From a virus, in the IMG/VR virus record IMGVR_UViG_3300030007_000012, positions 1 to 38,092 of that record: a DNA stretch of 38,092 bases; one strand, given 5' to 3'. Below the pieces are notes generated by a model. It searched no databases. It was not told the DNA's origin and saw only the letters and a program-made list of their open reading frames with translations. Made by a program: the position numbers and the translations under genes. The first letter of the stretch is position 1, and every line of letters starts with the position of its first letter. Positions 1,327 through 29,799 of this stretch are shown here, piece after piece.

Positions 1327-3302
1327 GCGGTGTAACACCGTCAAAGCAAGACGAGGCCCTCGCGGGAGCGTCCGGCAAGAAAGGCGACACGCCTTCGGGG
1401 GATGACGAGGAGGGGTCCTGGGAACGGCGACTCGTTTTGCGATGCGCGGAATATGTTGCTCGGGCCGACGCCAACGAGGACGCACGTAGAAAGTCCGATC
1501 GCATCGGTGCGAATCTCATGTATGGACGGCATTGGAACGTCCCCATGCCATCGACCCGCGCGGCCTTGACAGTCAATTTCACCAAAGCGTTGATACTCCA
1601 CAAACTCGCAATTATGACCAAACAAGATCCTATACCTGTAATTGAGCCGACCGAGTTCGGAGACGCAAAGGCGAGTAAACTCCTCCGCCAAGTAATGATG
1701 AAATGGTGGCGAGAAAAGAATCTGAAGACGAAGCTCCGTAAAGCGGAGCTTCTGGCAAATTCAACGCGCACCTGTTCGTGGAAAATTAGTTGGGACCCGA
1801 CCGATAACGGCGGCGTCGGCGATGTGACGTGCGATGTGATTCCCGGCTGGCGCTTAATTCTCGATGATCGCGCGGACACGACGCATCGCATGCAGTTCAT
1901 CGGGCATCGCGAGACGCTGCAACGCAGCGAGGCGGCGTTGCTCTACGAAGACGCTGCGGAGAAGATTTACGCCGGAGCCGAAGACGGCAAGCGGGGACAA
2001 ACGCATTCCGGCGGAAGCATGCCGACCTCGCCGCTTGGCGATCCGTGGCGACGCATGGCGGCGAGCAACCAAAACCTCGGCACTATCGTCAACGGCAAGC
2101 CGGTGATTAGCGCGTACTCGATGACGGGGCCAAGTGCGAAGCCGCAATTCTCAAACGAAGACTCCGTGCAGATCATCGAGCTGTTCCATCGCGACCGCAC
2201 CCTTATACGCAAAGACGTGCAGGTCTACGACGTCTCAGGCAACCCGCGCAAGCAGATCGCGCGCGACGACGAAGGCATTCCGCAATTCGACCCGGCGGAA
2301 GAAGAGCAGCATCCGCAACCGGACGGCACGACCGTTACGTTGCCGGGATTCAAGCTCCGTATGGAACCCGTGATGGAGAAACGCCTTGTTCCGAAATACC
2401 CGCATTGGCGGAGAACGACGTTCCTTTTACCCGACCTCGCGTTGGTTGACGACCGTGCTTGGGATGGTCCAGTGCCCCACGCGCTATTTTCAGATGGTGA
2501 AGCACTTGAAGGGCCGTGGGTTAAGGGATGCGCGCTCGATTGTGAAGACATACAGATGTCGCTCAATGTGAGCCTCTCGATCATGATGGACAACCTTCGC
2601 ATGTCCTCGTTGCGGCCCGTGCTCGCCGGACAAGGAAGCAACATCGAGCAGAACACTCTCTTAGTGAAACCGGGGCAGGTGGTTCGTGTCGGCAAGATTA
2701 GCGAAGTACAACCGTTTGAGTTTCCGCAGCTTTCCGATACGTGGTTCCAATGGTGCAATTTTATGGTTAGCAACATGGAACGGATTGTCGGTGCGACCGG
2801 GATTATGCAGGGTGAAGCTGCGGGCCGCGTGGATTCGGCAGCGGGGTACGATCTGTTGGCCGAGATCGGCGGATCTCGACTCGTGGCGGAAACAAAGCGG
2901 ATGGAGCAGAGCATCATCGACGCAATGCGAATCGCCGCCTGGTTCATGCAACGCCGCTATACCGAGCAACACGCCGTCGCCGTAACGGACTCTGAAGGAA
3001 ACATTAGTGAAGAAAAACTCGGTGGCGCATTTTTGCTCGGGACGTTCAATTTCGATATCGTCACCGGATCCACTATGGCGTGGTCCGAATCGAGCGTACG
3101 TGCTCGACTACTGCAAGAATTGCAGAACGGTATTATTGACAAAGTGGCGTATTGGCAGCGCACGAATACGCCGGATTGGCAGCAAATCCAAGAACGGATT
3201 CTTCATCAACCGCCTGCTCTATCCGGCGCAGCAGCTTCGCCACCGCCTCGTACGCGCACCGCTCCGAAGAATGCAAGCAAAGTCCCCAAGGTAGCGGCGT
3301 AG
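1323..3302 (+). CDS. Portal protein
   Basis: At 659 residues this is the expected size and place for the dodecameric portal, the DNA gateway at one capsid vertex, directly after the terminase end. The N-terminal region has the usual helical segment with GANLMYGRHWNVPMPSTRAAL, then LTVNFTKALILHKLAIMTKQDP, like the wall region of podovirus and siphovirus portals. The middle has a beta-rich insertion (PHWRRTTFLLPDLALVDD). The later part (DIQMSLNVSLSIMMDNLRMS, then MERIVGATGIMQGEAAGRVDS) matches the helical crown and stem segments of portal families. The C-terminus is a short basic Pro/Ala tail. It overlaps the gene before by four bases and the next start by one. Confidence 0.85.
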   Translation: MSGVTPSKQDEALAGASGKKGDTPSGDDEEGSWERRLVLRCAEYVARADANEDARRKSDRIGANLMYGRHWNVPMPSTRAALTVNFTKALILHKLAIMTKQDPIPVIEPTEFGDAKASKLLRQVMMKWWREKNLKTKLRKAELLANSTRTCSWKISWDPTDNGGVGDVTCDVIPGWRLILDDRADTTHRMQFIGHRETLQRSEAALLYEDAAEKIYAGAEDGKRGQTHSGGSMPTSPLGDPWRRMAASNQNLGTIVNGKPVISAYSMTGPSAKPQFSNEDSVQIIELFHRDRTLIRKDVQVYDVSGNPRKQIARDDEGIPQFDPAEEEQHPQPDGTTVTLPGFKLRMEPVMEKRLVPKYPHWRRTTFLLPDLALVDDRAWDGPVPHALFSDGEALEGPWVKGCALDCEDIQMSLNVSLSIMMDNLRMSSLRPVLAGQGSNIEQNTLLVKPGQVVRVGKISEVQPFEFPQLSDTWFQWCNFMVSNMERIVGATGIMQGEAAGRVDSAAGYDLLAEIGGSRLVAETKRMEQSIIDAMRIAAWFMQRRYTEQHAVAVTDSEGNISEEKLGGAFLLGTFNFDIVTGSTMAWSESSVRARLLQELQNGIIDKVAYWQRTNTPDWQQIQERILHQPPALSGAAASPPPRTRTAPKNASKVPKVAA

Positions 3303-3688
3303 TGGCTTCGAGTATAAAGTATTACTATCGAAATATGGAACGCGGCGTTTGCGTTAACGGGCCGAAGCACGGGCCCGCAACGCATGGCGTTCTTTGCGTG
3401 AACTGTTATGAGAAATCTCGCGCAACAAATGCTCGGGTAAGGCTCCGAAACGCCGAACAAGGACTCTGTAGCTATAGCGCGGCTCACGGTCCTCCGACGA
3501 TTGGAAAAGCCTGCGATGCGTGCAAGGCGTATTATCGCGAGCACGTAGCGTATCAGCGGAAGTGGAACCGCGAGCACGGCCTTTGCATGAACGCGACTTC
3601 GCACGGTGAGACGGGAGGCTTCCTCTTCTGTCTGTCGTGTCGAGAAAAGCAGCGAGCACAATATCACGCTAAAAAGGTAGCGGCGTAG
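3302..3688 (+). CDS. Triple C-x5-H-x8-C-x2-C zinc-module protein
   Basis: This 128-residue protein has three copies of one Cys/His module with identical spacing: C17-H23-C32-C35, C56-H62-C71-C74 and C95-H101-C110-C113. The period is exactly 39 residues. Between the modules are basic, aromatic helical linkers (KAYYREHVAYQRKWNRE). Each module carries the motif G-[LV]-C...H-G...C-x-x-C, so each probably binds one zinc ion. The gene starts at GTG 3302, sharing its G with the portal TAG stop; ATG 3335 is an alternative. I do not recognise a named family. HNH nucleases can carry similar Cys pairs, but no H-N-H core is present. Nucleic-acid binding is inferred. Paralogous modules occur at 27443, 29078 and 29581. 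Confidence 0.75.
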   Translation: MASSIKYYYRNMERGVCVNGPKHGPATHGVLCVNCYEKSRATNARVRLRNAEQGLCSYSAAHGPPTIGKACDACKAYYREHVAYQRKWNREHGLCMNATSHGETGGFLFCLSCREKQRAQYHAKKVAA

Positions 3689-3689
3689 C

Positions 3690-3902
3690 TTGAACGCCTC
3701 GCTCGTCAATGCGGAGGGCCTTCTCACGCTCTCCGCTCAGGAACGCATCATTGCGGCGGTGATTCACCTCGCGGGGCAGAATCCGCGCGCAGCCGCCCGA
3801 CTCATCGCGGTGATCTCGCATCCTCCGCAGGTCGGCAGCGTGAAGCTCTCGTGGCGCGAAGGGAAGCTCAACGGGTGTGAGGTCGTGGAGCAGACGTATT
3901 GA
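3690..3902 (+). CDS. Small protein, unknown
   Basis: This is a 70-residue frame starting with TTG one base after the previous stop. It has an amphipathic helical first half (SAQERIIAAVIHLAGQNPRAAARLIAVIS) and a short beta-like end (VGSVKLSWREGKLNGCEVVEQ). The position in a tightly packed run and the codon use support a real gene. No domain is recognised. It overlaps the next TTG start by four bases, so the pair is probably co-translated. Its place after the portal does not by itself show a virion role, because the neighbours look like accessory rather than structural genes. Confidence 0.55.
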   Translation: MNASLVNAEGLLTLSAQERIIAAVIHLAGQNPRAAARLIAVISHPPQVGSVKLSWREGKLNGCEVVEQTY

Positions 3903-4117
3903 GGGACCTCACGCATATCGAGGATGCGGTTCTCGCCTGCGTCTTCGCCGGACAAGAGGAGATTTATCGCGCCTTGGAGCGCCTTGAGCGCGAAGGGTTC
4001 ATCACGCGGGACACCGAGGGGCGTAAGAGCTACACGCTCGCCCGCGCTTTTGATTGGCTGCTTCGCGCGAAGGACGGGAAGCTCAGCGTGATTGGCCCGA
4101 TGGAACGCCCCGGCTAA
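3899..4117 (+). CDS. Small winged-helix-like protein
   Basis: The 72-residue protein begins at a TTG that overlaps the previous stop (TTGA). Residues about 18-48 (EEIYRALERLEREGFITRDTEGRKSYTL) have the pattern of a recognition helix followed by a wing: helix, Leu-rich turn, G-F-I, then a beta hairpin. This suggests a minimal winged helix-turn-helix, as in small phage DNA-binding proteins. The first helix is short, so the fold is not certain. The gene ends just inside the first 94-bp repeat and is followed at once by a strong terminator, so it is the last gene of this transcription unit. Confidence 0.55.
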   Translation: MRDLTHIEDAVLACVFAGQEEIYRALERLEREGFITRDTEGRKSYTLARAFDWLLRAKDGKLSVIGPMERPG

Positions 4118-4207
4118 CCTCTGCCGCGAAAGCGCCGATACCTCCATTGAGATGTCACGGCGATCCCGGACACGCGCAAGCGTGTTCCGGGATCTTTGTT
4201 TTCAAGG
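4114..4207 (+). repeat. 94-bp direct repeat, copy 1 (contains terminator)
   Basis: The element runs from CTAACCTCTGCCGCG to TTTTCAAGG. Copy 2 at 4472-4564 is close to 90% identical by eye. Differences cluster at the first hairpin, a short stretch near CTCCATT/CCCTAGT, and the right arm of the terminator. Inside are a small GCG-AAAG-CGC hairpin and then a long terminator hairpin. The two copies bracket one minus-strand gene, as expected if a gene entered by duplicating or recombining at a terminator. Confidence 0.85.
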
Positions 4208-4433
4208 CGCGAAGCGCGGCTTGCATCACGCGATGATTATGCGCGCACCTCTCGCATTGCGTCTTCGCCGGGATCGCCGGGGCCTCGGCGCAGGTCACGC
4301 AGATTCCCTGGCGCTTGAGACGCTTGTAACGAGACTCTAAGTACGAAGCATCGACAGACTTGCCCGTGCGATCTGCTCGCGCCTGGGCTTTCTTTATCAC
4401 GACCTCGCGCTTCGTCTTGAGCTTCCTCGGCAT
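4155..4433 (-). CDS. Minus-strand CxxC/CxxC mini zinc protein (moron-like)
   Basis: This 92-residue, very basic protein is encoded against the structural operon. Its core is KRQGICVTCAEAPAIPAKTQ followed by CERC: a C-x2-C-x11-C-x2-C ribbon with basic helices on both sides. The frame and flanks (G-x-C before, C-x-x-C-x3-H/R after) match the C-x5-H modules elsewhere, with the His replaced by a Cys pair. Its last residues (EHACACPGSP) are encoded by the terminator hairpin of repeat copy 1. The gene lies between two direct repeats, so it looks like an inserted accessory gene with its own expression. No strong ribosome site precedes the ATG. The function is unknown; DNA or RNA binding is inferred. 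Confidence 0.65.
   Translation of the reverse strand: MPRKLKTKREVVIKKAQARADRTGKSVDASYLESRYKRLKRQGICVTCAEAPAIPAKTQCERCAHNHRVMQAALRALKTKIPEHACACPGSP
4162..4202 (+). terminator. Rho-independent terminator in repeat copy 1
   Basis: The stem GATCCCGG-ACACGC pairs with GCGTGT-TCCGGGATC around a GCAA loop, with one bulged base, and is followed by TTTGTTTT. It should end plus-strand transcripts from the portal region. On the minus strand the same bases encode the C-terminal residues of the gene at 4155-4433. Confidence 0.85.
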
Positions 4434-4471
4434 CGTGCCAAGAACGTACTGCGCTTTATCTTTGTACCCCT

Positions 4472-4564
4472 CTAACCTCTCCGGCGAAAGCGCCGATACC
4501 CCTAGTGAGATGTCACGGCGATCCCGGACACGCGCAAGCGTGGTCGGGATTTTTGTTTTTAAGG
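4472..4564 (+). repeat. 94-bp direct repeat, copy 2 (contains terminator and SD)
   Basis: This is the second copy of the 4114-4207 element. It has a perfect GGCG-AAAG-CGCC hairpin at its left and a terminator at its right. Its last bases (AAGG, running into ATGAG) serve as the ribosome site of the gene at 4575. That suggests the unit normally sits between a terminator and a downstream start. Confidence 0.85.
4521..4560 (+). terminator. Rho-independent terminator in repeat copy 2
   Basis: ATCCCGGACACGC pairs with GCGTGGTCGGGAT around GCAA, with a two-base internal mismatch, and is followed by TTTTTGTTTTT. The stem is weaker than copy 1 but the T-tract is longer. It lies 15 bases upstream of the next start codon, so downstream structural genes need read-through or a promoter that I cannot identify. 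Confidence 0.8.
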
Positions 4565-4574
4565 ATGAGTGTTC

Positions 4575-5063
4575 ATGGCCGGATTCCCCGTCGCCGCACC
4601 CGGAGGCCCACCAGCTCCCGGCGCGCTCGGCAAGGGCGATGCGTCCGCGTTACTCGCGCGGCTGAAGCAATCAGCTCCGGCGGCGAATCCGAAGACGCCC
4701 GACTCCCGGATTGATCCGGGCATCGAGCGGTTGCAGACGGCAAACCAAGTGCGCGTGAGCTTGGAAAAGCTCTTGAACACGATCAATGATGATGAAGTGA
4801 TTCTGAAAGCGTTGGTCACCGGAATGCACTCTGTCACGACAAAGATCCTTGCGGAAGTGGATCCGCAGGAGATTCTCGCCGGTGCCGCTTCTCAGCTCGG
4901 GAAAGCGCAGGCTTCTGCTTCACCAGCTCCACCACCAAGCCCCACGGCAGGGATGCCAGGCAAACCAGGAGCGGGTGTCGGCGCAATGCCACCTCCGCCA
5001 GGTCCAGGGATGGCCCCTGGAATGCCGAGCGGACCTGTGTCGCCCGGAGCACCTCCGGGTTAA
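4575..5063 (+). CDS. Pro/Gly-rich protein before the scaffold
   Basis: The protein has 162 residues. A central helical domain (residues about 45-105, SRIDPGIERLQTANQVRVSL through KILAEVDPQEILAGAASQ) lies between Pro/Gly/Ala-rich arms (AAPGGPPAPGALG; GMPGKPGAGVGAMPPPPGPG). It starts at ATG 4575 with AAGGATGAG upstream; GTG 4569 is the in-frame alternative. Its place between portal and scaffold and its disordered ends suggest a head-assembly factor or minor head component. I know of no defining family motif. It begins the second structural transcription unit after the doubled terminator. Confidence 0.6.
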   Translation: MAGFPVAAPGGPPAPGALGKGDASALLARLKQSAPAANPKTPDSRIDPGIERLQTANQVRVSLEKLLNTINDDEVILKALVTGMHSVTTKILAEVDPQEILAGAASQLGKAQASASPAPPPSPTAGMPGKPGAGVGAMPPPPGPGMAPGMPSGPVSPGAPPG

Positions 5064-5076
5064 CAAGGAGGTTGTC

Positions 5077-5127
5077 ATGCGTAGACATCACGGTGGCCGC
5101 AAAGGCCGTCACGGACGTCGGAAGTAA
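5077..5127 (+). CDS. 16-residue Arg/His/Gly peptide
   Basis: A complete tiny frame, ATG 5077 to TAA 5127, has an ideal ribosome site (AAGGAGG at 5065-5071, five bases from the ATG) and encodes MRRHHGGRKGRHGRRK. Eight of its 16 residues are Arg or Lys and three are His. It fits exactly between the Pro-rich gene and the scaffold (three-base gap), so the site is not explained by the scaffold ATG at 5131. A protamine-like or RNA-binding peptide, or a short leader for the scaffold, are both possible. Confidence 0.55.
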   Translation: MRRHHGGRKGRHGRRK

Positions 5128-5130
5128 CCG

Positions 5131-5841
5131 ATGAGTAACGGCGGCGTGGGCGAGCCCTCTCCAGGCGGCGGATTCACGCCGCCCTCTTCCCCCGCGATTG
5201 ACGCGGGAGAGTACGCGCGAATGCAGCAGCAGCTGCACGAGCTACAGCAGTACCAGCAAGAGACGCAATCCGTCTTCGACCAGCTTGCTCCGCACTCTGC
5301 GCGTATCAAGCGCATGGTCGAGGATGAGTCGGCGGCGAGGTTGTTTGACGATTCCCTTGCGAGCTACGAGGCGCTACAGTCGCGCAACAAGCCGAAGCTC
5401 AGTGACGAGTGGAATCCCGAGATCAACCCCTACCTCAAAAAGATAGACGAGCTTTACGATGAGGTGAAAACCTTCCGCAAGCAGAGCGACGAGTACGGGC
5501 AGCAGCAGCAGCAGCAGGTAAATCAACGCCTGCTCTCCGAGAACACGAAGCTTTCTGAGCAGCTCATCGAGAAGTTTCCGCACCTCGCAGAAGCGGACTA
5601 CGCGGGAATTAAGATGATCGCAAGCTACGGCATCCAAAACAAGATGTCGTTTGCGGATGCGGCCTCGGCGCTAGAGCCCGCGTACAAGCGCGAGCGAGCG
5701 GTTGAGCCGACGCTTCGCACGACCGCAGGCGCTCCCGGCGTTCCCGGTGCGAGCGAAGGAAAACTCGACAACATTGATCTCGTTGCACGCGCGACGGATC
5801 TCATAAAACACGAGCAGCGTAAAGCAGGGATGCAACGATAG
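5131..5841 (+). CDS. Capsid scaffolding protein
   Basis: This 236-residue acidic, helical protein ends three bases before the capsid gene, the standard position of a scaffold. The N-terminus is disordered (SPGGGFTPPSSP). Residues about 28-55 form a Gln-rich coiled coil (ARMQQQLHELQQYQQET). A second coil with a QQQQQQ run (DEYGQQQQQQVNQRLLSE) leads to a conserved-looking segment (EKFPHLAEADYAGIKMIASY). The C-terminal tail is basic and helical (ATDLIKHEQRKAGMQR), as in scaffold segments that contact the capsid protein. Scaffolds drive procapsid assembly and are absent from mature virions. No protease was seen nearby. Confidence 0.75.
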   Translation: MSNGGVGEPSPGGGFTPPSSPAIDAGEYARMQQQLHELQQYQQETQSVFDQLAPHSARIKRMVEDESAARLFDDSLASYEALQSRNKPKLSDEWNPEINPYLKKIDELYDEVKTFRKQSDEYGQQQQQQVNQRLLSENTKLSEQLIEKFPHLAEADYAGIKMIASYGIQNKMSFADAASALEPAYKRERAVEPTLRTTAGAPGVPGASEGKLDNIDLVARATDLIKHEQRKAGMQR

Positions 5842-5844
5842 ATC

Positions 5845-6876
5845 ATGGCTGATATTTCATCGCAGTACATCTACCTCAACGCCTTTCAATCTCTCACCCG
5901 CGAGGGATTCGTTACGCGCAAGATCATCGACACCGTTTTCAAGGCGAAGAAATTCTACCAATACCTTCGCAGTCGAAGCATGGTCGATGATGTCAAAGGA
6001 ACCGCCGCCTTAACGTGGCCGATCAACATCGGAACAAGCCCGAACACGACCACGTTTGACGGCGACGACAACCTTCCGATCGCGACGATGAACGGGAATA
6101 TCGTGCGGCCTGCCCTCGGCTGGCGGCGATATACCGACGCGCTCGCAATTCCGCTTACCGATGTTTTCGATAACAACGACAGCCCGGAAGCAATCGCGAA
6201 CTTGCTTGACGTGCAGCTCGACATAACCAAGATGTCGCTGGTTGATCGTGTCTCAACCGATACGATCACGAACACGAACGCGATCAATCCGAAAGGCCTC
6301 GACGGGCTTGCGGAAGCGATTGACGATGGTACCGTCGCGCCGACGTATGCAGGTTTCTCTCGCGCACAATTAGGCGCGAAGTGGAAGAGTCAGGTCAACT
6401 ACAGCGTTGCGAACGGCACGAGCGCAAACCTCATTGCGAACCTGCACACGCTCGACTTGCAGGCTTCCGTTGACGGCTCGCGTCCCGATGCCTACTTCAC
6501 AAATATAGCGGCCTTTGGGGGCCTGATACAATCTCTCTTTCCGCAAGACAGATATGTGCAGCCCGACCTTGCTCGCACGGTTGGAGGCTCAGATCTTTTG
6601 TTCAACGGGAGCCCCTTGTTCCTCGACAACGCTATACCTACGGGTATAGCGACGCCTGGGACGCCTCCTGGAACGGGAAACAACAGCGGCGGATACTTCT
6701 ACGGAATCAATTCGACGTACATGAAGCTCGTGGTAAATCCCAACGTGAACTTCATCACGATGGATTGGCAGATCGGTCAAAATAACCTTGTGATTTTCAC
6801 ACGTATTTTGTGGTTTGCGAATCTCGTTTGTCTCAAGCCATCCGCTCATTTCGTAGCCTGGCTCCAGAATTACTAA
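5845..6876 (+). CDS. Major capsid protein, HK97 fold
   Basis: At 343 residues, directly behind the scaffold, this fits the major capsid protein. The N-terminus (MADISSQYIYLNAFQSLTRE) and the segments FYQYLRSRSMVDDVKGTAAL and PALGWRRYTDALAIPLTDVF match the N-arm, spine-helix and E-loop regions of scaffold-dependent HK97-type capsid proteins. The later DAYFTNIAAFGGLIQSLFPQ and NSTYMKLVVNPNVNFITMDW fit the P- and A-domain strands. No N-terminal delta domain is fused, which agrees with a separate scaffold. The next gene is preceded by AAGGAG overlapping this stop, typical of strongly expressed head genes. Confidence 0.85.
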   Translation: MADISSQYIYLNAFQSLTREGFVTRKIIDTVFKAKKFYQYLRSRSMVDDVKGTAALTWPINIGTSPNTTTFDGDDNLPIATMNGNIVRPALGWRRYTDALAIPLTDVFDNNDSPEAIANLLDVQLDITKMSLVDRVSTDTITNTNAINPKGLDGLAEAIDDGTVAPTYAGFSRAQLGAKWKSQVNYSVANGTSANLIANLHTLDLQASVDGSRPDAYFTNIAAFGGLIQSLFPQDRYVQPDLARTVGGSDLLFNGSPLFLDNAIPTGIATPGTPPGTGNNSGGYFYGINSTYMKLVVNPNVNFITMDWQIGQNNLVIFTRILWFANLVCLKPSAHFVAWLQNY

Positions 6877-6887
6877 GGAGAAGCATC

Positions 6888-7124
6888 ATGGCAAAGAGTG
6901 AAACGACCAACGCGCACGGCCCCGACAAAGATTACTACGAGACTGCCTCCGGCGTCGTATTCTCGCCTGCGTTCATGGCGAACGGAATAACCGGCGCACC
7001 TCCGTTCCCCGGCATGCGCGGCGGGAACGGAGAACCGGGCTCCGGCACACTTGACGGCAAGAGCCCGCGCACGAGCGGCAACGGCATTCCGAATCACTTC
7101 TTCGGGAAGGGTGAACGCGGCTAA
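6888..7124 (+). CDS. Small Gly/Pro-rich protein after the capsid gene
   Basis: This 78-residue protein starts at ATG 6888 with AAGGAG at 6875-6880. It is rich in Gly, Asn and Pro (PGMRGGNGEPGSGTLDGKSP) with a short Tyr-rich N-terminal segment (DKDYYETASGVVF). No domain is recognised. Its position and ribosome site point to a minor head protein, perhaps a cement or decoration factor. Its stop overlaps the next ATG. Confidence 0.6.
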   Translation: MAKSETTNAHGPDKDYYETASGVVFSPAFMANGITGAPPFPGMRGGNGEPGSGTLDGKSPRTSGNGIPNHFFGKGERG

Positions 7125-7903
7125 TGGGCATCAACAAAAACTTCGTTAGCACGGACGGCCTTAACGCCGGTGTGCAGGGCGATGACATCTTCGTCGGCGT
7201 CTCACTTGCCGCCGCAGGTGTGCTTGCCGTTGGAACGCCGATCTGCCGCGACCTTACGGCGTTGCCTGGCGGGTTGCTTCCGCAGGACGTGAATCCAAGC
7301 AAACTCTTCCAGAACGCGCGCGTGAGTGATCACGGCGTTCTTGCGACGAGCGCGAATGCGGGCGATCTTCTCGGCGTCTTCCAAGGTGTCGGCGAGCAGG
7401 GCATCGCCTACACGAATAACACGGGCGCAGCGCAATACTATCCGGCCCCCTGTCGATTCCAGGGTATCGGGCGCGTGCTTGCGGGTGCGATTGCAGCGGG
7501 TACCGCCGTTACCATCGGCTCGATTCTCGTCATCTCAAACGCGAATATTTTTGCAACCGTTGGCTCGCGCGCGTTCGGTACGGCAATCGGGCGCGTGATC
7601 GCGTACCCCGTCAACACGACCGTCGCCGCGAATAGTGCGGCGGGAAGTGTCGCCGTCACACCGGCGAGCATGGTCGGCATTGTCGCGGGTATGTCGCTTG
7701 TGATCGACCAGGGGACTTTGCAAGAGACGGTAGTCGTCGCAAGCATCACCGCAACGACCTTCACCGCTCCATTCACCCTCGCGCATACCGGGCCGTTCAC
7801 CGTGCAGGGCATATTGAGTACCGTTGGCGCGGCGATCATTCCCGTTCCCGGCGCGAGCAACACGCAAGCCGTCGTCTTCGCCGACTTCAACGGTATCGGT
7901 TGA
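7124..7903 (+). CDS. Probable head decoration protein
   Basis: The 259-residue protein is nearly all beta-strand by composition (Val, Ala, Gly, Thr). It has internal repeats of the V-x-A-G-x-x-x-G-T kind (GVSLAAAGVLAVGTPICRDL; RVLAGAIAAGTAVTIGSILV) and a C-terminal beta sandwich-like part (SMVGIVAGMSLVIDQG, then TATTFTAPFTLAHTGPF). Such proteins next to the capsid gene are usually capsid decoration or stabilising proteins. The segment ASMVGIVAGMSLVIDQGTLQ resembles phage proteins where a short IVAG-type domain is added to surface-exposed chains. The assignment rests on location and composition, not a diagnostic motif. Confidence 0.55.
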   Translation: MGINKNFVSTDGLNAGVQGDDIFVGVSLAAAGVLAVGTPICRDLTALPGGLLPQDVNPSKLFQNARVSDHGVLATSANAGDLLGVFQGVGEQGIAYTNNTGAAQYYPAPCRFQGIGRVLAGAIAAGTAVTIGSILVISNANIFATVGSRAFGTAIGRVIAYPVNTTVAANSAAGSVAVTPASMVGIVAGMSLVIDQGTLQETVVVASITATTFTAPFTLAHTGPFTVQGILSTVGAAIIPVPGASNTQAVVFADFNGIG

Positions 7904-8616: not shown

Positions 8617-8618
8617 TT

Positions 8619-9872: not shown

Positions 9873-9876
9873 GTGT

Positions 9877-10530: not shown

Positions 10531-10542
10531 GAGAGGCCACGG

Positions 10543-11337: not shown

Positions 11338-11342
11338 CACTC

Positions 11343-14839: not shown

Positions 14840-14840
14840 G

Positions 14841-20411: not shown

Positions 20412-20412
20412 T

Positions 20413-23002: not shown

Positions 23003-23003
23003 C

Positions 23004-23198: not shown

Positions 23199-23203
23199 GC
23201 GCG

Positions 23204-23347: not shown

Positions 23348-23508
23348 AAAATTGGGACCCGATCATCGGCGATTATGTCGCCTACCTCCAACAAGCGCGA
23401 GCGGAATGCGACGACCCTGCCGTTTTCGGTAAGGTCGTTCGCGCGTTATTGCGCGAGTTTTGCGATCACATCATAACGAGAGGAAAGTACTATGCCAGGA
23501 AACTATAA
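23344..23508 (+). CDS. Tiny helical protein, unknown
   Basis: This 54-residue frame starts with TTG overlapping the previous stop (TTGA). It is amphipathic helical (DYVAYLQQARAECDDPAVFG; VVRALLREFCDHIITRGKYY). Its 3' end overlaps the SSB start by 17 bases, and the SSB ribosome site (GAGAGGAAAG) lies within it. Tight coupling supports translation. The function is unknown. Confidence 0.5.
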   Translation: MKNWDPIIGDYVAYLQQARAECDDPAVFGKVVRALLREFCDHIITRGKYYARKL

Positions 23509-23884: not shown

Positions 23885-24048
23885 GCCTGGTGAACTTGCT
23901 CGTCCTCGTCCTCGTCGTGGTCCTGCTCTTCCACCTGCTCGGCGGAGTCGTCGCGCCGGGATATCGCGCGCTGCCGTACTACCTTCCCGGCGCGGGCACG
24001 CTGCTCGTGATCGTGCTTATCGTGCTCGTGGTGACGCGCCTGCTTTAG
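23881..24048 (+). CDS. Small two-span membrane protein
   Basis: This 55-residue frame starts with TTG overlapping the SSB stop. It is almost wholly hydrophobic: residues 3-22 (LVNLLVLVLVVVLLFHLLGG) and 38-54 (GTLLVIVLIVLVVTRLL) form two spans joined by a short polar loop (APGYRALPYYLPG). The function is unknown. Its place behind SSB does not suggest lysis. Membrane-level interference with the host is one option. Confidence 0.55.
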   Translation: MSLVNLLVLVLVVVLLFHLLGGVVAPGYRALPYYLPGAGTLLVIVLIVLVVTRLL

Positions 24049-24229
24049 CTGCTCGGTCGAGCCGTTCCGGTGGGACGGAGTAACGGATTTCGCGGGGCCG
24101 AAAAACGGCGCGATCTGCGTGTCCGCGAATGGATCTTTGCGGACACGCAAGCCTACCCCATTCGCCTCTGTCGCCGGGACGCGCCGAAGCGCATGATGTT
24201 ACGACACACCGTCGCTTGGAGGCCCCCCA
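24049..24229 (+). other. Intergenic region with a perfect 11-bp-stem hairpin
   Basis: No gene was seen. TGCGTGTCCGC (24116-24126) pairs perfectly with GCGGACACGCA (24139-24149) around a 12-base loop. A small GCCG-AAAAA-CGGC hairpin lies at 24097-24109. There is no T-tract, so this is more likely an RNA structure or protein site than an intrinsic terminator. Confidence 0.6.
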
Positions 24230-24451
24230 ATGTTTCGTACGATATACACCGCATCGCAAGGCTGGTACAACCGCAGCACCGATTGGTTTCAGCACAGCAA
24301 GAACCCGGTCATCACGACCCTGCGCTGGATCTGGTGGGGCACGATTGGCCTCTGGGCGATGGTGCTCTTCAGCGGCATCAACGCCGACTTCTTGCAGCCG
24401 TTTCCCGGCGCGAGCATCGTCGGATCGGTCGCCGCGCTCTTCGTCCACTGA
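24230..24451 (+). CDS. Small single-span membrane protein
   Basis: The 73-residue protein starts at ATG 24230 with TTGGAGG upstream. It has an aromatic, basic N-terminus (MFRTIYTASQGWYNRSTDWF) and one membrane segment (LRWIWWGTIGLWAMVLFSG, about residues 31-49), then a second weaker hydrophobic stretch (GASIVGSVAALFV). No motif is recognised. It is followed by a terminator at 24490, so it ends a transcription unit. Confidence 0.6.
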   Translation: MFRTIYTASQGWYNRSTDWFQHSKNPVITTLRWIWWGTIGLWAMVLFSGINADFLQPFPGASIVGSVAALFVH

Positions 24452-24489
24452 TCGCGCCCGCGCCCTAGGCCCGCGTCGCGAGATCTGCC

Positions 24490-24515
24490 GACCTCCCGAA
24501 GACGGAGGTCTTTTT
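24490..24515 (+). terminator. Terminator whose right arm holds the next ribosome site
   Basis: GACCTCC (24490-24496) pairs with GGAGGTC (24504-24510) around CGAAGAC and is followed by TTTTT. The GGAGG in the right arm lies nine bases before ATG 24518. When the stem forms, the transcript ends or the ribosome site is hidden. When it is open, the next gene can be translated. Confidence 0.75.
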
Positions 24516-24517
24516 CT

Positions 24518-24799
24518 ATGTCCGAGTCCGCCCTACTCGCCCACGCCGACGCCTTCTTCGAGTGGCACCCCGATTGGCCCGAGGAGCGTCCCTCGACGTG
24601 GCACCTCCTGCCCGACCTCGACGCCCTGCGGCGGAAGTGGCGCAAAAAGATGGCCCTGCCGCGTGAGGCGAAGCCCGTGCAGCACGTCAATTACTGCGGC
24701 GGGTGCTTTGCGCGATTCGTCTCGCCAACGGCACAGGAATCCGCCGCCGCCCTGCGCGCGCACATCGAGGGAACGCCGTGTATGCACTACGCGGTATGA
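24518..24799 (+). CDS. Small CCHC-type zinc protein
   Basis: The 93-residue protein has a Trp-rich acidic N-terminus (ADAFFEWHPDWPEERPSTWH), a basic helix (LRRKWRKKMALP) and a C-terminal C-x2-C...H-x5-C pattern: NYCGGCFARF, then RAHIEGTPCMHYAV. This fits one zinc ion in a CCHC or CCHH finger. The closing H-x-x-G-T-P-C occurs in other small phage zinc proteins. The ribosome site is inside the preceding terminator hairpin. The function is unknown. Confidence 0.6.
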   Translation: MSESALLAHADAFFEWHPDWPEERPSTWHLLPDLDALRRKWRKKMALPREAKPVQHVNYCGGCFARFVSPTAQESAAALRAHIEGTPCMHYAV

Positions 24800-25038
24800 G
24801 CCGTTCGGCTAGGGAATCCTGGCCCGAACAGGAACCACCAACACACGCGAAAGGCGCACCTCTTAGGTGCGCCTCGGACGTTACTCGCCGACCCTCAAAG
24901 ATCTTTGACCGGATAAAGAGAGGATCGGCACCAGGGAGGGCCCTCGAAAGAGGGTCGCGGAGCCTCGCTATGTCCTTCGGACGGTCGCTTGGCTTCCCCT
25001 CCTTGGTTCTAGCTGCTCTTTAGCAGCGGAGGACCAGC
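24800..25038 (+). ncRNA. Structured 5' leader with possible SD/anti-SD switch
   Basis: This 239-base stretch has no convincing gene but many pairings: AGGCGCACCT/AGGTGCGCCT (24852-24861 with 24865-24874); CCCTC-GAAA-GAGGG (24941-24954) with a GNRA loop; an alternative long-range 8-bp helix CGACCCTC (24889-24896) with GAGGGTCG (24950-24957); GTCC-TTC-GGAC near 24972; and GCTGCT-CTT-AGCAGC just before the ribosome site. CCCTCC at 24997-25002 can pair with GGGAGG (24934-24939) or with the Shine-Dalgarno at 25028-25032, so two exclusive folds are possible. No known riboswitch or ribozyme core was recognised. Confidence 0.45.
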
Positions 25039-25332
25039 ATGAGTACCCTTCGATGCCCGGTCTGTAATTACGAGTGCCTACACCACGAACGCGTCGAAAT
25101 CTTCGAGCGTCGGGAAGACGCCAAACGCGGTCTTCACGTTACTGTCGAATCGGGCAAGGTCGAGATTGACGAAGACATTGACGAGAACCCGAGTCGCAGG
25201 CGTCACGGACTTACGATTTTCTTTTCGTGCGAGACATGTCCAAAAAAATCACGCCTCACACTCTCGCAGCATAAAGGGGCTTCCCTCGTTGAGTTCCTCG
25301 AAGTCGAGCCGGAACCGGAGTGTCCGTTTTGA
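25039..25332 (+). CDS. Zinc-ribbon protein before the primase-helicase
   Basis: The 97-residue protein has two Cys pairs: RCPVCNYECLHHE near the N-terminus (C-x2-C-x3-C-x2-H-H) and FSCETCPKK at about residues 62-68. They are separated by a charged beta region with an acidic turn (KVEIDEDIDENPSRRRHG). The arrangement is a two-knuckle zinc ribbon. Its acidic tail (EVEPEPECPF) overlaps the primase-helicase start by 13 bases, so it is translated with it and may assist replication. The 240-base structured leader precedes it. No family is recognised. Confidence 0.65.
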   Translation: MSTLRCPVCNYECLHHERVEIFERREDAKRGLHVTVESGKVEIDEDIDENPSRRRHGLTIFFSCETCPKKSRLTLSQHKGASLVEFLEVEPEPECPF

Positions 25333-27419
25333 ACGCGGCCACGAAGGAGATGACGCACCTGGAATGGGCGCTCCTTTATGCAAGTATGGGCATTTGCGTG
25401 TTCCCGCTCTATCCCAAAAGCAAGAAACCCCTCGCACGTTCTAACGGGCTTCTCGACGCGACCCGCGACCCCGTACAAATCACGAAGTGGTGGAAGGAAA
25501 ACCCGAAGTACAACATCGGGATGAATTGCGGCATGTCCAACAGAGTCGTGCTCGACGTGGACATGAAGGACGGCAAGGATGGGAACCGAGCGGTCTATGC
25601 CCTCGTCGACGATCAGATCGACTTGCTCGGGACGAAGCGAGCGACGACACCCACGGGCGGCTACCACCTCCACTATGAATACGCCGGGATCGACGTTCGC
25701 AATAGCCAGGGCGAGCTAGGCGAAGGGCTCGACATTCGAGGCGACGGCGGCTTCGTCTTGATGCACCCCTCGTTCGTCGACGACAAAGAGAAGGGCATCC
25801 TCGGCTCATACGCCTGGGTCGTCGACGAGGAGGGCGAGACGCTTCCCTGCCTGCCGTTCCCCGACATCTTCCGCGTCAAGAAGACGCCGAAGGGCATCCT
25901 CGTTCGCGTCGCCGACGGGGAGAAGATCCCCGAGAAACAGCGGCACAAGCACCTCCTTAGCTACGCCGGGAAGCTGGTACGCGTCGGAAGCTCCTCCAGC
26001 GAAATCTACGCGGCGCTGTCGGCCAGGAATCAAGAGCGATGCAACCCGCCGAAGGACGATGCCGAGATCCGCAAGCTCGCCGAGGACGTGGCAAAGCGAT
26101 ACCCGTCCGACCCGAAGGCTGCGGAAGTAGCGTCCGATGATGACGACGCTCCGCTCATCGTCATCGACGCAGCCGAAGCCTCGCTAGAGCCCGTCGAGTG
26201 GTTATGGCCTGGTCGCATACCGCTCGGGCTCACGACGGCCATTGTAGGCCCCGAGGACGCCGGGAAGACGTTCTTCTACTGCGCTCTCGCCGCCGCGCTC
26301 TCGCGCGGGGTGCGCCTCCCGGACGCGGAGGAGGCATTCTCTTGCTCCTCACTCTTGTATCACGGCGAGGACCTCCAGACGACGATTCGGGACCGTCTCA
26401 CGCGCTGCGGCGCGGATCTCAAACGAGTAAAACTCATCGGACAAGAAATCGGTAGCGGGACACTCCGCAAGCTCGACATCTACCTTGGCGAGCACCCCGA
26501 GGTGAAGCTCGTCGTGATCGACCCGGTAACGGTCATGCTCGACGGTGTGAAGAGCGATAATAACGACACCGAGGTACGCCGAGCCCTACTCCCGCTCAAG
26601 GCGCTCGCCGAGAAGCGAGGCATCGCCCTGCTCTACCTGCGGCACACCGGAAAGAACGCCGAGCTGCGCGTGAAGGACAAGGTGCTCGGCGCCAAGGGAT
26701 TCATCGCCGTGCCGAGGACCGTGCTCGTCTTCTTGGAGGATGCCGAGACGAAGCGCCGCTTCTGCTTCAACGAGAAGAATAACCTCTGCGAGAAGGCCCC
26801 TCCGGTCGAGTACTTCATCTCGGATGCCGGGTTCGCATGGGGCGACACGGACGAGAGCGTTTGCGCCGAGGCGTTCGCCAAGAGCAAGCCCGATCCTAAC
26901 AGTGCTAAGAAGCGCCTTAAAGCGGAAGAGGTCATCGCGTGGATTCGGCAGGCGCTCGACGAGGGGCCAATGCCTTCGACCATGCTTCTTCGCCTGGCAC
27001 GAGCCAACGAGATTCCCGAGCGGTCAATCGAGCGGCATAAGGACGAGGCCGACGCCGTAAGCGAGCGATTCGGCAAGCTCGCAGAGGGCGGGCGCTGGTA
27101 TTGGTACCTGCGCGACAAGCTCCCTAAGACCGCCATTGTGACGCAAGAGCCTAATCACGCTCAAATTCCCGTTATCTCCGTTGGCGGTCAACGGTTTGGC
27201 GGTCTTAGTGAAAACCCTGATTCTACGCCTACTACTACTAAGACCGCCAATAGAGAGTCTATGCGCGCGCGTGAGGGTATCCTCTCCCACGACGCCTTCC
27301 GGCTCCGCACGCCTGCCGAGCTGAGTGCGAATGGCTCGACCCACGGCCACGCGGACGTCGAAGTGCGGGTCGAGGCCTCTCTGCTCGACGGGCCGACGCT
27401 CGACGGCGAGCTGCCGTGA
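25320..27419 (+). CDS. Primase-polymerase fused to RepA-type replicative helicase
   Basis: The 699-residue protein starts at GTG 25320. Residues about 15-220 form an archaeo-eukaryotic primase-like prim-pol domain: NGLLDATRDPVQITKWW, the catalytic D-x-D in NRVVLDVDMKDG, GGYHLHYEY and GEGLDIRGDGGFVLMHPSF. After a linker, residues about 290-520 are an AAA-type hexameric RepA/DnaB-like ATPase: Walker A in GPEDAGKTFFYC (about 309), LYHGEDLQTTIRDRLTRC, Walker B in KLVVIDPVTVMLDG, and LLYLRHTGKNAE. The C-terminus (KRLKAEEVIAWIRQALDEGP, then SIERHKDEADAV) looks like a winged-helix end found in such helicases. It should prime and unwind phage DNA. A DNA polymerase was not found elsewhere, so synthesis may rely on the host or this prim-pol. 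Confidence 0.85.
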   Translation: MSVLNAATKEMTHLEWALLYASMGICVFPLYPKSKKPLARSNGLLDATRDPVQITKWWKENPKYNIGMNCGMSNRVVLDVDMKDGKDGNRAVYALVDDQIDLLGTKRATTPTGGYHLHYEYAGIDVRNSQGELGEGLDIRGDGGFVLMHPSFVDDKEKGILGSYAWVVDEEGETLPCLPFPDIFRVKKTPKGILVRVADGEKIPEKQRHKHLLSYAGKLVRVGSSSSEIYAALSARNQERCNPPKDDAEIRKLAEDVAKRYPSDPKAAEVASDDDDAPLIVIDAAEASLEPVEWLWPGRIPLGLTTAIVGPEDAGKTFFYCALAAALSRGVRLPDAEEAFSCSSLLYHGEDLQTTIRDRLTRCGADLKRVKLIGQEIGSGTLRKLDIYLGEHPEVKLVVIDPVTVMLDGVKSDNNDTEVRRALLPLKALAEKRGIALLYLRHTGKNAELRVKDKVLGAKGFIAVPRTVLVFLEDAETKRRFCFNEKNNLCEKAPPVEYFISDAGFAWGDTDESVCAEAFAKSKPDPNSAKKRLKAEEVIAWIRQALDEGPMPSTMLLRLARANEIPERSIERHKDEADAVSERFGKLAEGGRWYWYLRDKLPKTAIVTQEPNHAQIPVISVGGQRFGGLSENPDSTPTTTKTANRESMRAREGILSHDAFRLRTPAELSANGSTHGHADVEVRVEASLLDGPTLDGELP

Positions 27420-27442
27420 AGCTGGCCGTCGATAGATAGGCC

Positions 27443-27685
27443 ATGGCGAAGACGAAGGCGCAGGTCGCCGAGCGGGCCGCAGCGGGCCTCTGCATCAACA
27501 ACCCGTCGCATGCGAAGCCGCGCGGCATCCAGACCTGCGATGCCTGCGCGGAGACGGACGCGCGCATGGCTATGCGCCGGAGGCGGCGCATCCAGGGGCT
27601 CGCGCAGGCCGAGATAACCAAGCGCAGCTTCTTTGAGGCATTGCAGGACCTCTATTATGCGGGCAAGCTCGGGCTGCGACGGTGA
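27443..27685 (+). CDS. Single C-x5-H-x8-C-x2-C zinc-module protein
   Basis: This 80-residue basic protein contains one exact copy of the module shared with 3302, 29078 and 29581: AGLCINNPSHAKPRGIQTC then DAC, with Cys17, His23, Cys32 and Cys35. It sits at the same distance from the N-terminus as in the 3302 protein (Cys17). The N-terminal helix (KAQVAERAAA) is basic. After the module is a strongly basic helix (ARMAMRRRRRIQ) and a helical tail. It lies between the helicase and RusA genes and its stop overlaps the RusA GTG. A DNA- or RNA-binding role is inferred. Confidence 0.75.
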   Translation: MAKTKAQVAERAAAGLCINNPSHAKPRGIQTCDACAETDARMAMRRRRRIQGLAQAEITKRSFFEALQDLYYAGKLGLRR

Positions 27686-28128
27686 AGCTGGCCTTCTTCG
27701 TCCCCGGCGTGCCTCAGCCGAAGGGCTCGCGCCGGATGATGCCGGTCGGCGGGAAGACCGGCGCGCTTCGCCATGTGCTCATAGAAGACGGCACACGCCT
27801 CACGAGGCCGCTGCGAGTCTCCTGGTATAGCCGAGTGGCAAAACACGCGTCAGCGGCCTTCCAGGGGCCTTCTGTGGCCTCTCCCGTGGTTATCAGCGCG
27901 CTCTTCCGGTTCCCGATCGCCAGGTCACGCCTCAAGGGCAAGCGCAGGCTCAAGCCCGGCGATCCGCACACGCAGAAGCCCGATGGAGACAAATGTCTGC
28001 GCGGCATCTTCGACCCCCTCAAGGTCGCGGGCGTCGTGATCGACGACTGCGTATTCTTCAAGTTTCAGGCGCGCAAGGAGTGGTGCGCCGAAGGAGACGA
28101 AGGCGCGGAAGTCCTACTTACCTGGTAA
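27682..28128 (+). CDS. rusA: RusA-type Holliday junction resolvase
   Basis: The 148-residue protein starts at GTG 27682, overlapping the previous stop. It has the RusA pattern: VPGVPQPKGSRRMMPV near the start, a central strand pair (VASPVVISALFRFPI), and the catalytic region KPDGDKCLRGIFDPLKVAG then VVIDDCVFFKF, where the family's Asp residues lie (D in KPDGDK, D in IFD, DD in VIDDC). Usual RusA length is about 120-150. It would resolve branched DNA made by recombination before packaging. It ends the plus-strand replication block, and a strong inverted repeat follows. Confidence 0.85.
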   Translation: MKLAFFVPGVPQPKGSRRMMPVGGKTGALRHVLIEDGTRLTRPLRVSWYSRVAKHASAAFQGPSVASPVVISALFRFPIARSRLKGKRRLKPGDPHTQKPDGDKCLRGIFDPLKVAGVVIDDCVFFKFQARKEWCAEGDEGAEVLLTW

Positions 28129-28187
28129 GCCCGTAGTGCCTACGTCACGGTCTCGCGGGTTCTTGCATGCTTCATCAGCAACATCGA

Positions 28188-28222
28188 AAACGAGCTATCA
28201 AGGAATCCTTGATAGCTCGTTT
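28188..28222. terminator. Perfect 17-bp inverted repeat, bidirectional terminator
   Basis: AAACGAGCTATCAAGGA and its exact complement flank one central base. A-rich bases on the left and TTT on the right give a T-tract on either strand. It sits between RusA (plus, ending 28128) and the minus gene cluster (ending 28224), where a shared terminator is expected. Confidence 0.85.
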
Positions 28223-28223
28223 G

Positions 28224-28445
28224 TCACGATCGGGCGGCTGAAAGGTCGGTTCGGTCATGTGTGCCATTGAGGCAGTCGAGGCAAACATGTTCTTTCGGGC
28301 ATGGCTGCGGCGCGTGATCTTCGCAGTAGATCGCGGCGATACACTTACACTCCGTACCATTCGCTGTTGGCTTGCGACACGCGCAGATATAGTATTCTAT
28401 GTCGATCTTCTTTCTTGCATCTCTCGCCGCTTCTTCACGCGGCAT
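28224..28445 (-). CDS. AN1-like zinc-finger protein
   Basis: The 73-residue protein (ATG 28445) holds a dense Cys/His array: C-x-C-x9-C-x-C-x5-C-x2-H-x4-C-x3-H-x-C-x2-C. The part YCEDHAPQPCPKEHVC follows the AN1-type rule (F/Y-C-x2-H ... H-x-C), with CACRK and CKC supplying the earlier ligands. AN1 fingers bind two zinc ions and are mostly known from eukaryotic and archaeal proteins. A longer start at 28514 (GTG) adds 23 unremarkable residues. The start lies inside the gene before it (49-base overlap), but no later start exists in this frame. The function is unknown; protein or nucleic-acid binding is inferred. Confidence 0.6.
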   Translation of the reverse strand: MPREEAARDARKKIDIEYYICACRKPTANGTECKCIAAIYCEDHAPQPCPKEHVCLDCLNGTHDRTDLSAARS

Positions 28446-28600
28446 AGGCGGCAGGTGGCGTAGGGTGCCTGGGATGGGCCGTGAACGCCCGGTGTTACCG
28501 GGCGTCGGAAGCACAGGATACAGAAACCGAGGGCGTGCGCTTCGTCACGCCGCGCTTGCGAGCGAAGGCGCTGGTCGGTCGAGGATTGCTTCTGGGGCAT
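28397..28600 (-). CDS. CxxC/CxxC basic mini zinc protein
   Basis: The 67-residue basic protein starts at ATG 28600; GTG 28609 is also possible. The core is EAHALGFCILCFRRPVTPG through YATCRLCRVKKRREMQ: a C-x2-C...C-x2-C ribbon followed by a strongly basic helix. The opening A-L-G-[FL]-C and the final C-x-x-C-x3-K/R-R match the C-x5-H modules of the neighbours, with the His supplied by Cys. It overlaps the gene on each side (56 and 49 bases), which is unusual for this genome. The frames are nevertheless well formed. Confidence 0.6.
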   Translation of the reverse strand: MPQKQSSTDQRLRSQARRDEAHALGFCILCFRRPVTPGVHGPSQAPYATCRLCRVKKRREMQERRST

Positions 28601-28814
28601 GATTGGCACCGTTCTGGGCGATTATGGCCTCGATGGATTCGGCGGCGTGCCGGAGCAGACATGCGATGCGCGGCAAGTCTTTTGGGTCGAGGTGGATGAA
28701 GAGGTCCGATCCGTCGAGGTCGATGTTGAGATAGGGCAAGCCAGCTTTGAGCGAATGATTGAGAGCGATGCTCTTGCAGTCGTCGCTCTCTGCGAACATC
28801 TTGCCGCGCATCAT
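28545..28814 (-). CDS. Small protein, unknown (no Cys cluster)
   Basis: The 89-residue protein starts at one of two adjacent ATGs (28812-28814 or 28809-28811). The middle looks well ordered: KAGLPYLNIDLDGSDLFIHL, then DPKDLPRIACLLRHAAESIE, a beta hairpin plus helix. It has two scattered Cys and no metal motif, unlike its neighbours. Its start overlaps the stop of the preceding gene (TGATG). The tail after NGANHAPEAI overlaps the next gene. The function is unknown. Confidence 0.6.
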   Translation of the reverse strand: MMRGKMFAESDDCKSIALNHSLKAGLPYLNIDLDGSDLFIHLDPKDLPRIACLLRHAAESIEAIIAQNGANHAPEAILDRPAPSLASAA

Positions 28815-28987
28815 AGCAGCTTCTCAAGCGCGTCGCTTGCCTCCGAGACGCCGGGGTACCGCTCGAAAATGTCGCTGGAGTCGAGTAACGCGAGTAACGC
28901 TTGTACAGCTTCGGTCATCTTGGCGTGCATCTCGCGCAGTGTTTCAACGTCGTATTCGAGTTGCTCGTAGGATGTTTGCGTTCGCAT
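28811..28987 (-). CDS. Small helical protein, first gene of a minus-strand unit
   Basis: The 58-residue protein begins MRTQTSYEQLEYDVETLREM and continues as acidic amphipathic helices (MTEAVQALLALLDSSDIFER) to a short end (SEASDALEKLL). AAGAAGG lies upstream of the ATG, and a sigma70-like promoter starts about 50 bases before it (29036-29064). Its stop overlaps the next ATG. A coiled-coil, dimer-forming character is likely. No family is recognised. Confidence 0.6.
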   Translation of the reverse strand: MRTQTSYEQLEYDVETLREMHAKMTEAVQALLALLDSSDIFERYPGVSEASDALEKLL

Positions 28988-29035
28988 AATACGCCTTCTT
29001 TGAAAAAGCCTTGTGGTGATTGGGGTTCTCCTTCA

Positions 29036-29064
29036 ATTATCGGCGATATGGTCGTAACATTCAA
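29036..29064 (-). promoter_or_regulatory. Sigma70-like promoter for the minus-strand unit
   Basis: On the minus strand TTGAAT and GATAAT are separated by exactly 17 bases. Four of six bases match the -35 consensus TTGACA and five of six the -10 consensus TATAAT. It lies just upstream of 28811-28987 and downstream of a hairpin that ends the preceding gene. Confidence 0.65.
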
Positions 29065-29080
29065 TAAGGCTTTCGCCTTA
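29065..29080 (-). terminator. Hairpin at the end of the triple-module gene
   Basis: TAAGGC-GAAA-GCCTTA on the minus strand has a GNRA loop and includes the TAA stop of 29078-29545. It is followed by TTGAATGTT, a weak T-tract. It may end that transcript just before the next promoter. Confidence 0.5.
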
Positions 29081-29545
29081 CTGTTGCCGCCAGAGCAATT
29101 CCCATAGATCGCGCGAGTCGATATTTCCGCCACGCGAGACGCGCTCGGGAATGGGCTCCTTGCGTCTCGCAGGCTTCGGCGCTACGGCGTTGCGCTTGGC
29201 GAGGCGTTGTGCAGCCGCAGCGCGTCGCGCAGCACAGGCCGCGCACCACGATCCTGCTACGGCAATGCCGTGTGAGGATCCGAACACGCACAACTTGCGA
29301 CGCTTGCGGTAGCACGCCTCGCAGATGATGCCGCGTGTTGCCTTGCCGTGCGAGGGAGCGTTGGCACAGAGCCCGCTCTGCTTGTACCTCGCGGATGCCG
29401 CACGCTTGACTGCGTCCCGAGCCTCCGCGCACGCCCCGCAGAGGTTGTGCCGCACCGCAGGGCCGTGACGCGCGACGTTCTGGCACAAGCCAAGCGCACG
29501 ATTCCTCGCGCGCCGTGCAGGCCGGGTGCCGGGGTTCTCGCCCAT
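29078..29545 (-). CDS. Triple C-x5-H-x8-C-x2-C zinc-module protein (second array)
   Basis: The 155-residue, very basic protein has three exact modules: C21-H27-C36-C39, C60-H66-C75-C78 and C86-H92-C101-C104. The first two are 39 residues apart, as in the 3302 protein; the third follows after only 26. The motifs are GLCQNVARHGPAVRHNLCGA, GLCANAPSHGKATRGIICEA and KLCVFGSSHGIAVAGSWCAA, each completed by C. Linkers are rich in Arg/Ala. A basic tail (AKRNAVAPKPARRKEPIPER) and a short acidic end follow. It is probably a nucleic-acid binder. Sequence shared with 3302 is confined to the module, so the pair is old or under strong change. Confidence 0.75.
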   Translation of the reverse strand: MGENPGTRPARRARNRALGLCQNVARHGPAVRHNLCGACAEARDAVKRAASARYKQSGLCANAPSHGKATRGIICEACYRKRRKLCVFGSSHGIAVAGSWCAACAARRAAAAQRLAKRNAVAPKPARRKEPIPERVSRGGNIDSRDLWELLWRQQ

Positions 29546-29580
29546 GCCCGATGGATCGGCAGGCTAGGCGGCGTCGCCTT

Positions 29581-29799
29581 TCAAGCGAGCGAGGCGTTAC
29601 GCCTCTTGCGCGCGTCGCGAAGGGCGTAGTTCGCGGCAAGGCATGCGGCACAGAGGAGCCCGTGGGTCGGCAGCGCGTGTCTTTTCCCGTTCTGGCAGAA
29701 TCCCTCGGCGACGTTCGCTTGCCGCCATGCGCGAGTCTTCTGCGCGCCGGTCGGCGAGGTTAGCGCCTTCGCGCGCCTCGCCTTGGGCTTCGCGGTCAT
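29581..29799 (-). CDS. Single C-x5-H-x8-C-x2-C zinc-module protein
   Basis: The 72-residue protein starts at ATG 29799, overlapping the previous stop by four bases; an upstream start at 29862 exists but lies inside the other gene. A basic Lys/Arg/Ala N-terminus (AKPKARRAKALTSPTGAQKT) leads to one module, EGFCQNGKRHALPTHGLLCA then AC (C35-H41-C50-C53), then a basic helix (RDARKRR). It has A for the usual G after the His, like the copy at 27443. It is encoded next to the triple-module gene, so array growth by module gain is plausible. Confidence 0.7.
   Translation of the reverse strand: MTAKPKARRAKALTSPTGAQKTRAWRQANVAEGFCQNGKRHALPTHGLLCAACLAANYALRDARKRRNASLA

Follow-up and report, generated by a model that had tools for sequence, protein, structure and literature searches.

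We find that a tailed-phage-type genome encodes four small proteins built from a putative zinc module that, judged by profile comparison, is a rare ligand-swapped variant of an abundant and largely undescribed phage zinc-finger repeat. The genome is the complete IMG/VR record IMGVR_UViG_3300030007_000012 (38,092 bp), all of which was analyzed and is here called the window. The modules have the pattern C-x5-H-x8-C-x2-C (His-type), while those of the abundant repeat, which we call the parent, have the pattern C-x2-C-x11-C-x2-C (Cys-type). In our preferred interpretation, to which we assign a probability of about 0.6, the window proteins bind DNA through tandem zinc modules and act without an attached nuclease; the modules would be recognition repeats of a kind otherwise associated with nucleases, but with one ligand swapped. 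Genes and proteins are named by the first coordinate of the gene (Table 1).

A six-frame search of the window for C.{5}H.{8}C..C returned exactly eight matches, which lie in four proteins (3302, 27443, 29078, and 29581) and nowhere else. These are the same eight modules, all at the same positions, that had been listed in an earlier note made from the sequence alone. When residues were shuffled within each protein, the mean number of modules was 0 to 0.0014, and the observed count was reached in none of 5,000 shuffles. Other phage DNA (1.08 Mb) contained two matches without a cysteine at position +3 in frames of at least 40 amino acids, equivalent to about 0.07 per 38 kb. The four proteins contain 24 cysteines, every one of them a module ligand. 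The second ligand is of the C-x5-H form, never C-x2-C, in all eight window modules and in eight of eight modules from elsewhere. From one module to the next, both intervals are 39 residues in the 3302 protein; those of 29078 are 39 and 26. The proteins are basic, as had been noted (predicted isoelectric points of 9.5 to 11.5). The proposed [GK]-[LFV]-C flank holds throughout the window but not beyond it, since one module of a related phage reads P-T-C.

The modules are conserved in that relative, G001 (IMGVR_UViG_3300049433_000130; 36,386 bp), whose portal protein is 94% identical to that of the window phage (G000 in this comparison). The two genomes are collinear, yet inverted and permuted relative to one another, with G001 sequence spanning the window ends. 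G001 carries five modules in three orthologs (three in 29078, one in 29581, and one in 27443), and 20 of 20 ligands are intact. Module proteins of the two phages are 39 to 51% identical, compared with 89 to 92% for the exonuclease and capsid proteins. The ratio of nonsynonymous to synonymous substitution rates (dN/dS) is 0.31 for 29078, 0.26 for 29581, and 0.85 for 27443, against 0.06 to 0.08 for the capsid and exonuclease genes. That the ligands are kept despite low identity, together with these ratios, indicates that the module genes are real and that their ligands are under selection. The 27443 gene is the weakest case for selection.

No family in Pfam, PHROG, NCBIfam, PADLOC, or the PDB sequences matches the His-type modules, which agrees with the earlier statement that no named family has this exact spacing, and literature searches found no description of the module. 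The profile comparison that had been proposed as a check gave a two-sided answer: the modules belong to no described library family, but they do align to an abundant, unnamed Cys-type module of phages. Phage proteins with the same layout and Cys-type ligands carry modules often in tandem threes (L154, MT835745; L156, Dulem virus 39) or singly (FP_Taranis). The His-type and Cys-type profiles align without gaps over 45 columns (probability ~95%, E-value 5.8e-8). Their score of 36.8 compares with 12.1 +/- 2.3 (maximum 22.8) in 200 permutations that kept the cysteines fixed and permuted the remaining columns. Among 79 Cys-type reading frames, 103 of 127 modules have their first and third cysteines 15 residues apart, and the most frequent distance from one module to the next is 38 to 40 residues, matching the 39 of the 3302 protein. 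The His-type modules have this same 15-residue distance, the final C-x2-C, and a period near 39; in the window, the parent's first ligand pair C-x2-C is found in the 4155 protein alone. Six loci hold modules with both Cys+3 and His+6 (L144 at 4546-4692, L159, L186, L192, L272, and L276), and two genomes (G004 and G010) each carry both module types. The idea of one adaptable scaffold is thus strongly supported by the profile alignment, the fixed-cysteine permutations, and the bridging modules. Of the two C-x2-C proteins that had been tentatively assigned to this scaffold, 4155 is well supported by its identical 15-residue distance, while 28397 (C-x2-C-x19-C-x2-C) is a looser relative.

Viral contigs contain at least 120 Cys-type stretches, compared with a handful of the His type at similar pattern stringency. 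The modules are therefore not the isolated novelty that they had appeared to be, because the parent repeat is abundant in phages. The Cys-type family (L157-L276) is very common in phage contigs, has up to five modules per protein, and is partly fused to HNH nucleases. The members scanned gave no above-cut-off Pfam match to the module itself.

His-type modules were found in five viral contigs in all, window included: besides G001, three contigs carry one module each (L038 in G003, L023 in G004, and L138 in G010). A pattern scan of viral contigs returned 20 stretches, with three contigs proving real (G001, L023, and L038). The chance level can be gauged from a pattern shortened by one base, which matched 11 stretches in the same collection, none of them containing a module. 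Among 84,980 species genomes, 85 pattern matches included none that was convincing; as the pattern catches only three of the eight window modules, absence from cells is suggestive but unproven. Matches in Oligoflexaceae, Labrys, and Hyphobacterium were rejected as cellular modules, being weak and in improbable frames. Profile searches of 398 and 299 Pseudomonadota genomes, in which a subset of candidates was scored without a positive control genome, were empty. No relatives of the three-module proteins were found by tblastn against phages and plasmids.

Structure prediction is compatible with one zinc site per module. For the 29581 module (16 sequences), AlphaFold2 places the four ligands in a loop between one helix (residues 6-19) and another (39-59), the second of which carries the last C-x2-C at its start; the predicted local distance difference test (pLDDT) score is 96. 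In the model of the three-module 3302 protein, the predicted zinc loops are connected via 20-residue helices.

The functional argument comes from the parent repeat. At least 10 of the 79 Cys-type proteins have an HNH-like or endonuclease VII-like nuclease motif, and one has HNH_4 above the Pfam cut-off. PHROG matches of Cys-type proteins include endonuclease VII, HNH endonuclease, and “DNA binding protein” (phrog_19644). Their largest neighbors are most often primase/helicase, DnaB, replication initiator, integrase, methyltransferase, and ParB, and in FP_Taranis the Cys-type gene adjoins Ref and RuvC genes. Since the parent repeat is sometimes attached to DNA-cutting enzymes, the window proteins probably bind DNA. 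By this analogy, we infer that they are stand-alone DNA-binding arrays, probably with a role in phage replication/recombination or repression. The earlier proposal of nucleic-acid binders is thus plausible and can be sharpened to DNA by the parent fusions; its companion, that of host-interfering factors, found no backing; the parent neighbors are mostly replication/recombination genes.

Under this interpretation, the parent module would be a 19-residue zinc loop, C-x2-C-x11-C-x2-C, set between basic helices with a period of ~39 residues. Some proteins would consist of tandem arrays of it, and in others it would be joined to nucleases of the HNH/endonuclease VII type. The variant would differ by a shift of its second ligand from Cys+3 to His+6, with no change in the frame (15 residues from the first to the third cysteine, the last cysteine at 18), the helices, or the 39-residue period. 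Each module would bind one zinc ion, and the arrays would read DNA as beads on a string. Having no nuclease part, the stand-alone proteins may serve as repressors or as accessory factors that bind DNA. For instance, 27443 might work with the RusA resolvase, the 29078 and 29581 proteins might act from an early-type minus-strand operon, and the 3302 protein could be a cassette akin to the 29078-type three-module protein.

Several observations weigh against this interpretation. His+6 is no commoner in parent modules than any histidine, at about the background frequency, so the bridging modules mark only a passable route, open but not proven taken. None of the His-type modules was found fused to a nuclease, and the Cys-type neighbor counts are raw, without a formal background. 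Only one of five models of the 3302 protein is confident (84.9, the others at most 65.4), neither the 3302 nor the 29581 model had a fold match in the PDB, and a viral structure library gave weak matches, four of nine from a single phage (ctrNG92).

The window module proteins have no nuclease match above cut-off in Pfam, PHROG, or NCBIfam. An endonuclease VII lead was followed and gave a weak profile match in the active-site region (score 17.8 over 9 columns, two sequences only). Coupling to RusA by gene overlap concerns 27443, one of the four window module genes.

It is unlikely that the arrays bind phage or host RNA instead, for example in antitermination or ribosome control. The module proteins are strongly basic, and the parent profile shows a weak similarity to ribosomal protein eL37, which has an rRNA-binding C-x2-C-x11-C-x2-C finger. 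However, this lead proved weak when followed (E-value 0.006-0.8); the match is not significant alone, and the parent fusions and neighborhoods indicate DNA enzymes. We also consider it improbable that the modules bind and modify a host or phage protein during takeover or counter-defense, with the basic helices serving solubility or charge contacts. Such a role would suit small, fast-evolving proteins, a minus-strand operon of early type, and the 29078 tail, which resembles a binding peptide, but PADLOC gave no defense-related match and the other module proteins lack the tail. This tail (29081-29200, minus strand; RGGN-x-DS-x3-WE-x-LW) is conserved in G001 and is possibly an interaction peptide.

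Table 1. Module genes, modules, and associated features of the window
Feature	Coordinates	Strand	Remarks
Three-module protein (3302)	3302..3688	+	GTG start overlaps portal stop; between portal gene and short conserved stretch; absent in G001
Module 1, 3302 protein	3350..3406	+	six-frame motif search
Module 2, 3302 protein	3467..3523	+	six-frame motif search
Module 3, 3302 protein	3584..3640	+	six-frame motif search
15-bp exact direct repeat AAGGTAGCGGCGTAG, left copy	3288..3302	+	end of portal gene
15-bp exact direct repeat AAGGTAGCGGCGTAG, right copy	3674..3688	+	end of 3302 gene
Protein with Cys-type module C-x2-C-x11-C-x2-C (4155)	4155..4433	-	module 4245-4301; segment absent from G001
94-nt direct repeat, left copy	4109..4202	.	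overlaps 3' end of 4155 gene; terminator-like hairpin
94-nt direct repeat, right copy	4467..4560	.	85% identical to left copy
One-module protein (27443)	27443..27685	+	module 27491-27547; stop overlaps RusA-like resolvase start (GTGA)
RusA-type Holliday junction resolvase	27682..28128	+	Pfam PF05866; apparently coupled to 27443 module gene
C-x2-C-x19-C-x2-C protein (28397)	28397..28609	-	similar helical flanks, longer loop; G001 ortholog ~50% identical
Three-module protein with conserved tail (29078)	29078..29545	-	G001 ortholog ~50% identical, 12 of 12 ligands kept
Module 1, 29078 protein	29429..29485	-	six-frame motif search
Module 2, 29078 protein	29312..29368	-	six-frame motif search
Module 3, 29078 protein	29234..29290	-	six-frame motif search
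One-module protein (29581)	29581..29799	-	module 29641-29697; start coupled to upstream gene via ATGA
Small Cys-rich protein (C-x2-C ... C-x2-C)	29796..29978	-	upstream of and coupled to 29581 gene

Two of the tabulated genes lie in segments that differ between the related phages. The 3302 gene is absent in G001, where the portal end joins directly to the sequence downstream of the gene. The 4155 gene lies inside a second G001-absent segment, between the 94-nt repeats. The flanking repeats fit either gain in G000 by duplication or loss in G001 by recombination. Exact 15-nt direct repeats within 600 nt of each other are confined in the window to these, to 32401/32628 and 33138/33285, and to internally repetitive coding stretches. 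The segments are a clear case of gain or loss of such genes between related phages. A fuller scenario, which we regard as doubtful, is that the window encodes a dispersed multi-gene set of ligand-swapped arrays (one to three modules each) acting as sequence-specific DNA readers. Such readers would descend from the recognition portion of homing-type nucleases and would have spread through the genome in small cassettes flanked by repeats, and the Cys-to-His shift would give them a function distinct from that of the Cys-type modules in this phage.

The repeat-flanked position of the 3302 and 4155 genes, and the presence of the parent module on HNH proteins, could also suggest decaying, functionless remnants of mobile HNH/endonuclease VII genes, briefly kept after insertion. 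This is very unlikely, since G000 and G001 agree at every ligand and dN/dS is ~0.3 in 29078 and 29581, none of the eight modules has a broken ligand, and the endonuclease VII active-site region matches poorly. It is highly improbable that the two module types arose independently and that the demands of zinc binding alone make them look alike: the modules are short and compositionally simple and the second ligand differs, but the profile score is far above the fixed-cysteine controls, the 39-residue period and helices are common to both types, and both occur in the same phages.

Among known systems, the closest likeness is to the unnamed phage Cys-type tandem proteins (in part phrog_19644), such as AUV56821.1 of the Faecalibacterium phage FP_Taranis and XCD07520.1 of Dulem virus 39. 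They share with the window modules the 15-residue frame, the final C-x2-C, a G-[LIVF]-C start, basic helical flanks, the ~39-residue period, and a replication-region setting. They differ in having Cys+3 instead of His+6 and in their abundance (at least 120 stretches versus five contigs). Zinc-finger repeats of phage homing endonucleases have been described as beads-on-a-string recognition modules, and CapR as a stand-alone transcriptional repressor related to them (PMC10448857). The CapR/T5orf172 homing endonuclease repeats (CapR/DUF723) resemble the window set as small, repeated zinc modules that are modular with nucleases and include a stand-alone repressor, but their ligand pattern is CxxC...CxC. 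The window proteins had no Pfam match to DUF723-type domains up to an E-value of 1, in libraries without a CapR profile. The NCBIfam family TIGR04402, a mobilome CxxCx(11)CxxC protein with, by its name, a mobile-element setting, has the same cysteine spacing as the 4155 protein. Its match to 4155 is not significant (E-value 0.077; 13 bits against a cut-off of 70; motif only), and it does not match the His proteins. Halovirus small CxxC proteins (PMC7911831, PMC7230728), compared by description only, likewise comprise many small zinc-finger-like proteins per virus, mostly outside assembly genes, but have CxxC motifs only and archaeal hosts.

The window thus offers a zinc module that is absent from all family libraries used, and in which a ligand appears to have moved by three residues while the helix-loop-helix frame stayed fixed. 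The analysis also brings to light the larger phage Cys-type family, which is common in viral contigs and partly HNH-fused; the Pfam models scanned include none dedicated to it. Small modular DNA-binding proteins could be sought in this family and tested.

Other genes of the window include those for the portal, the major head protein, SSB, Prim-Pol/helicase, RusA, and a Cas4-like exonuclease. Among 50,697 phage records, there were no nucleotide matches to the first 25 kb, no matches to the exonuclease protein, and no tblastn matches to the major head protein (5845-6876) at an E-value of 1e-5. A capsid-protein scan for relatives returned G001 as its sole match. With its head protein unmatched, the window phage appears to be a member of a poorly sampled group. 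For the 29581 protein, 29799 is the most likely start: its ATG and the stop codon of the gene upstream overlap in the sequence ATGA. The surrounding minus-strand block (28175-29978) consists of very small genes, several of them Cys-rich and translationally coupled, in a genome that is otherwise mostly plus-strand. The Prim-Pol/helicase (25320-27419) is only ~30% identical to its G001 counterpart, whereas structural genes are 77 to 94% identical, which suggests a replication gene swap. Finally, two consecutive genes open with an identical 19 nt (32401-32419 and 32628-32646), possibly through a small duplication.

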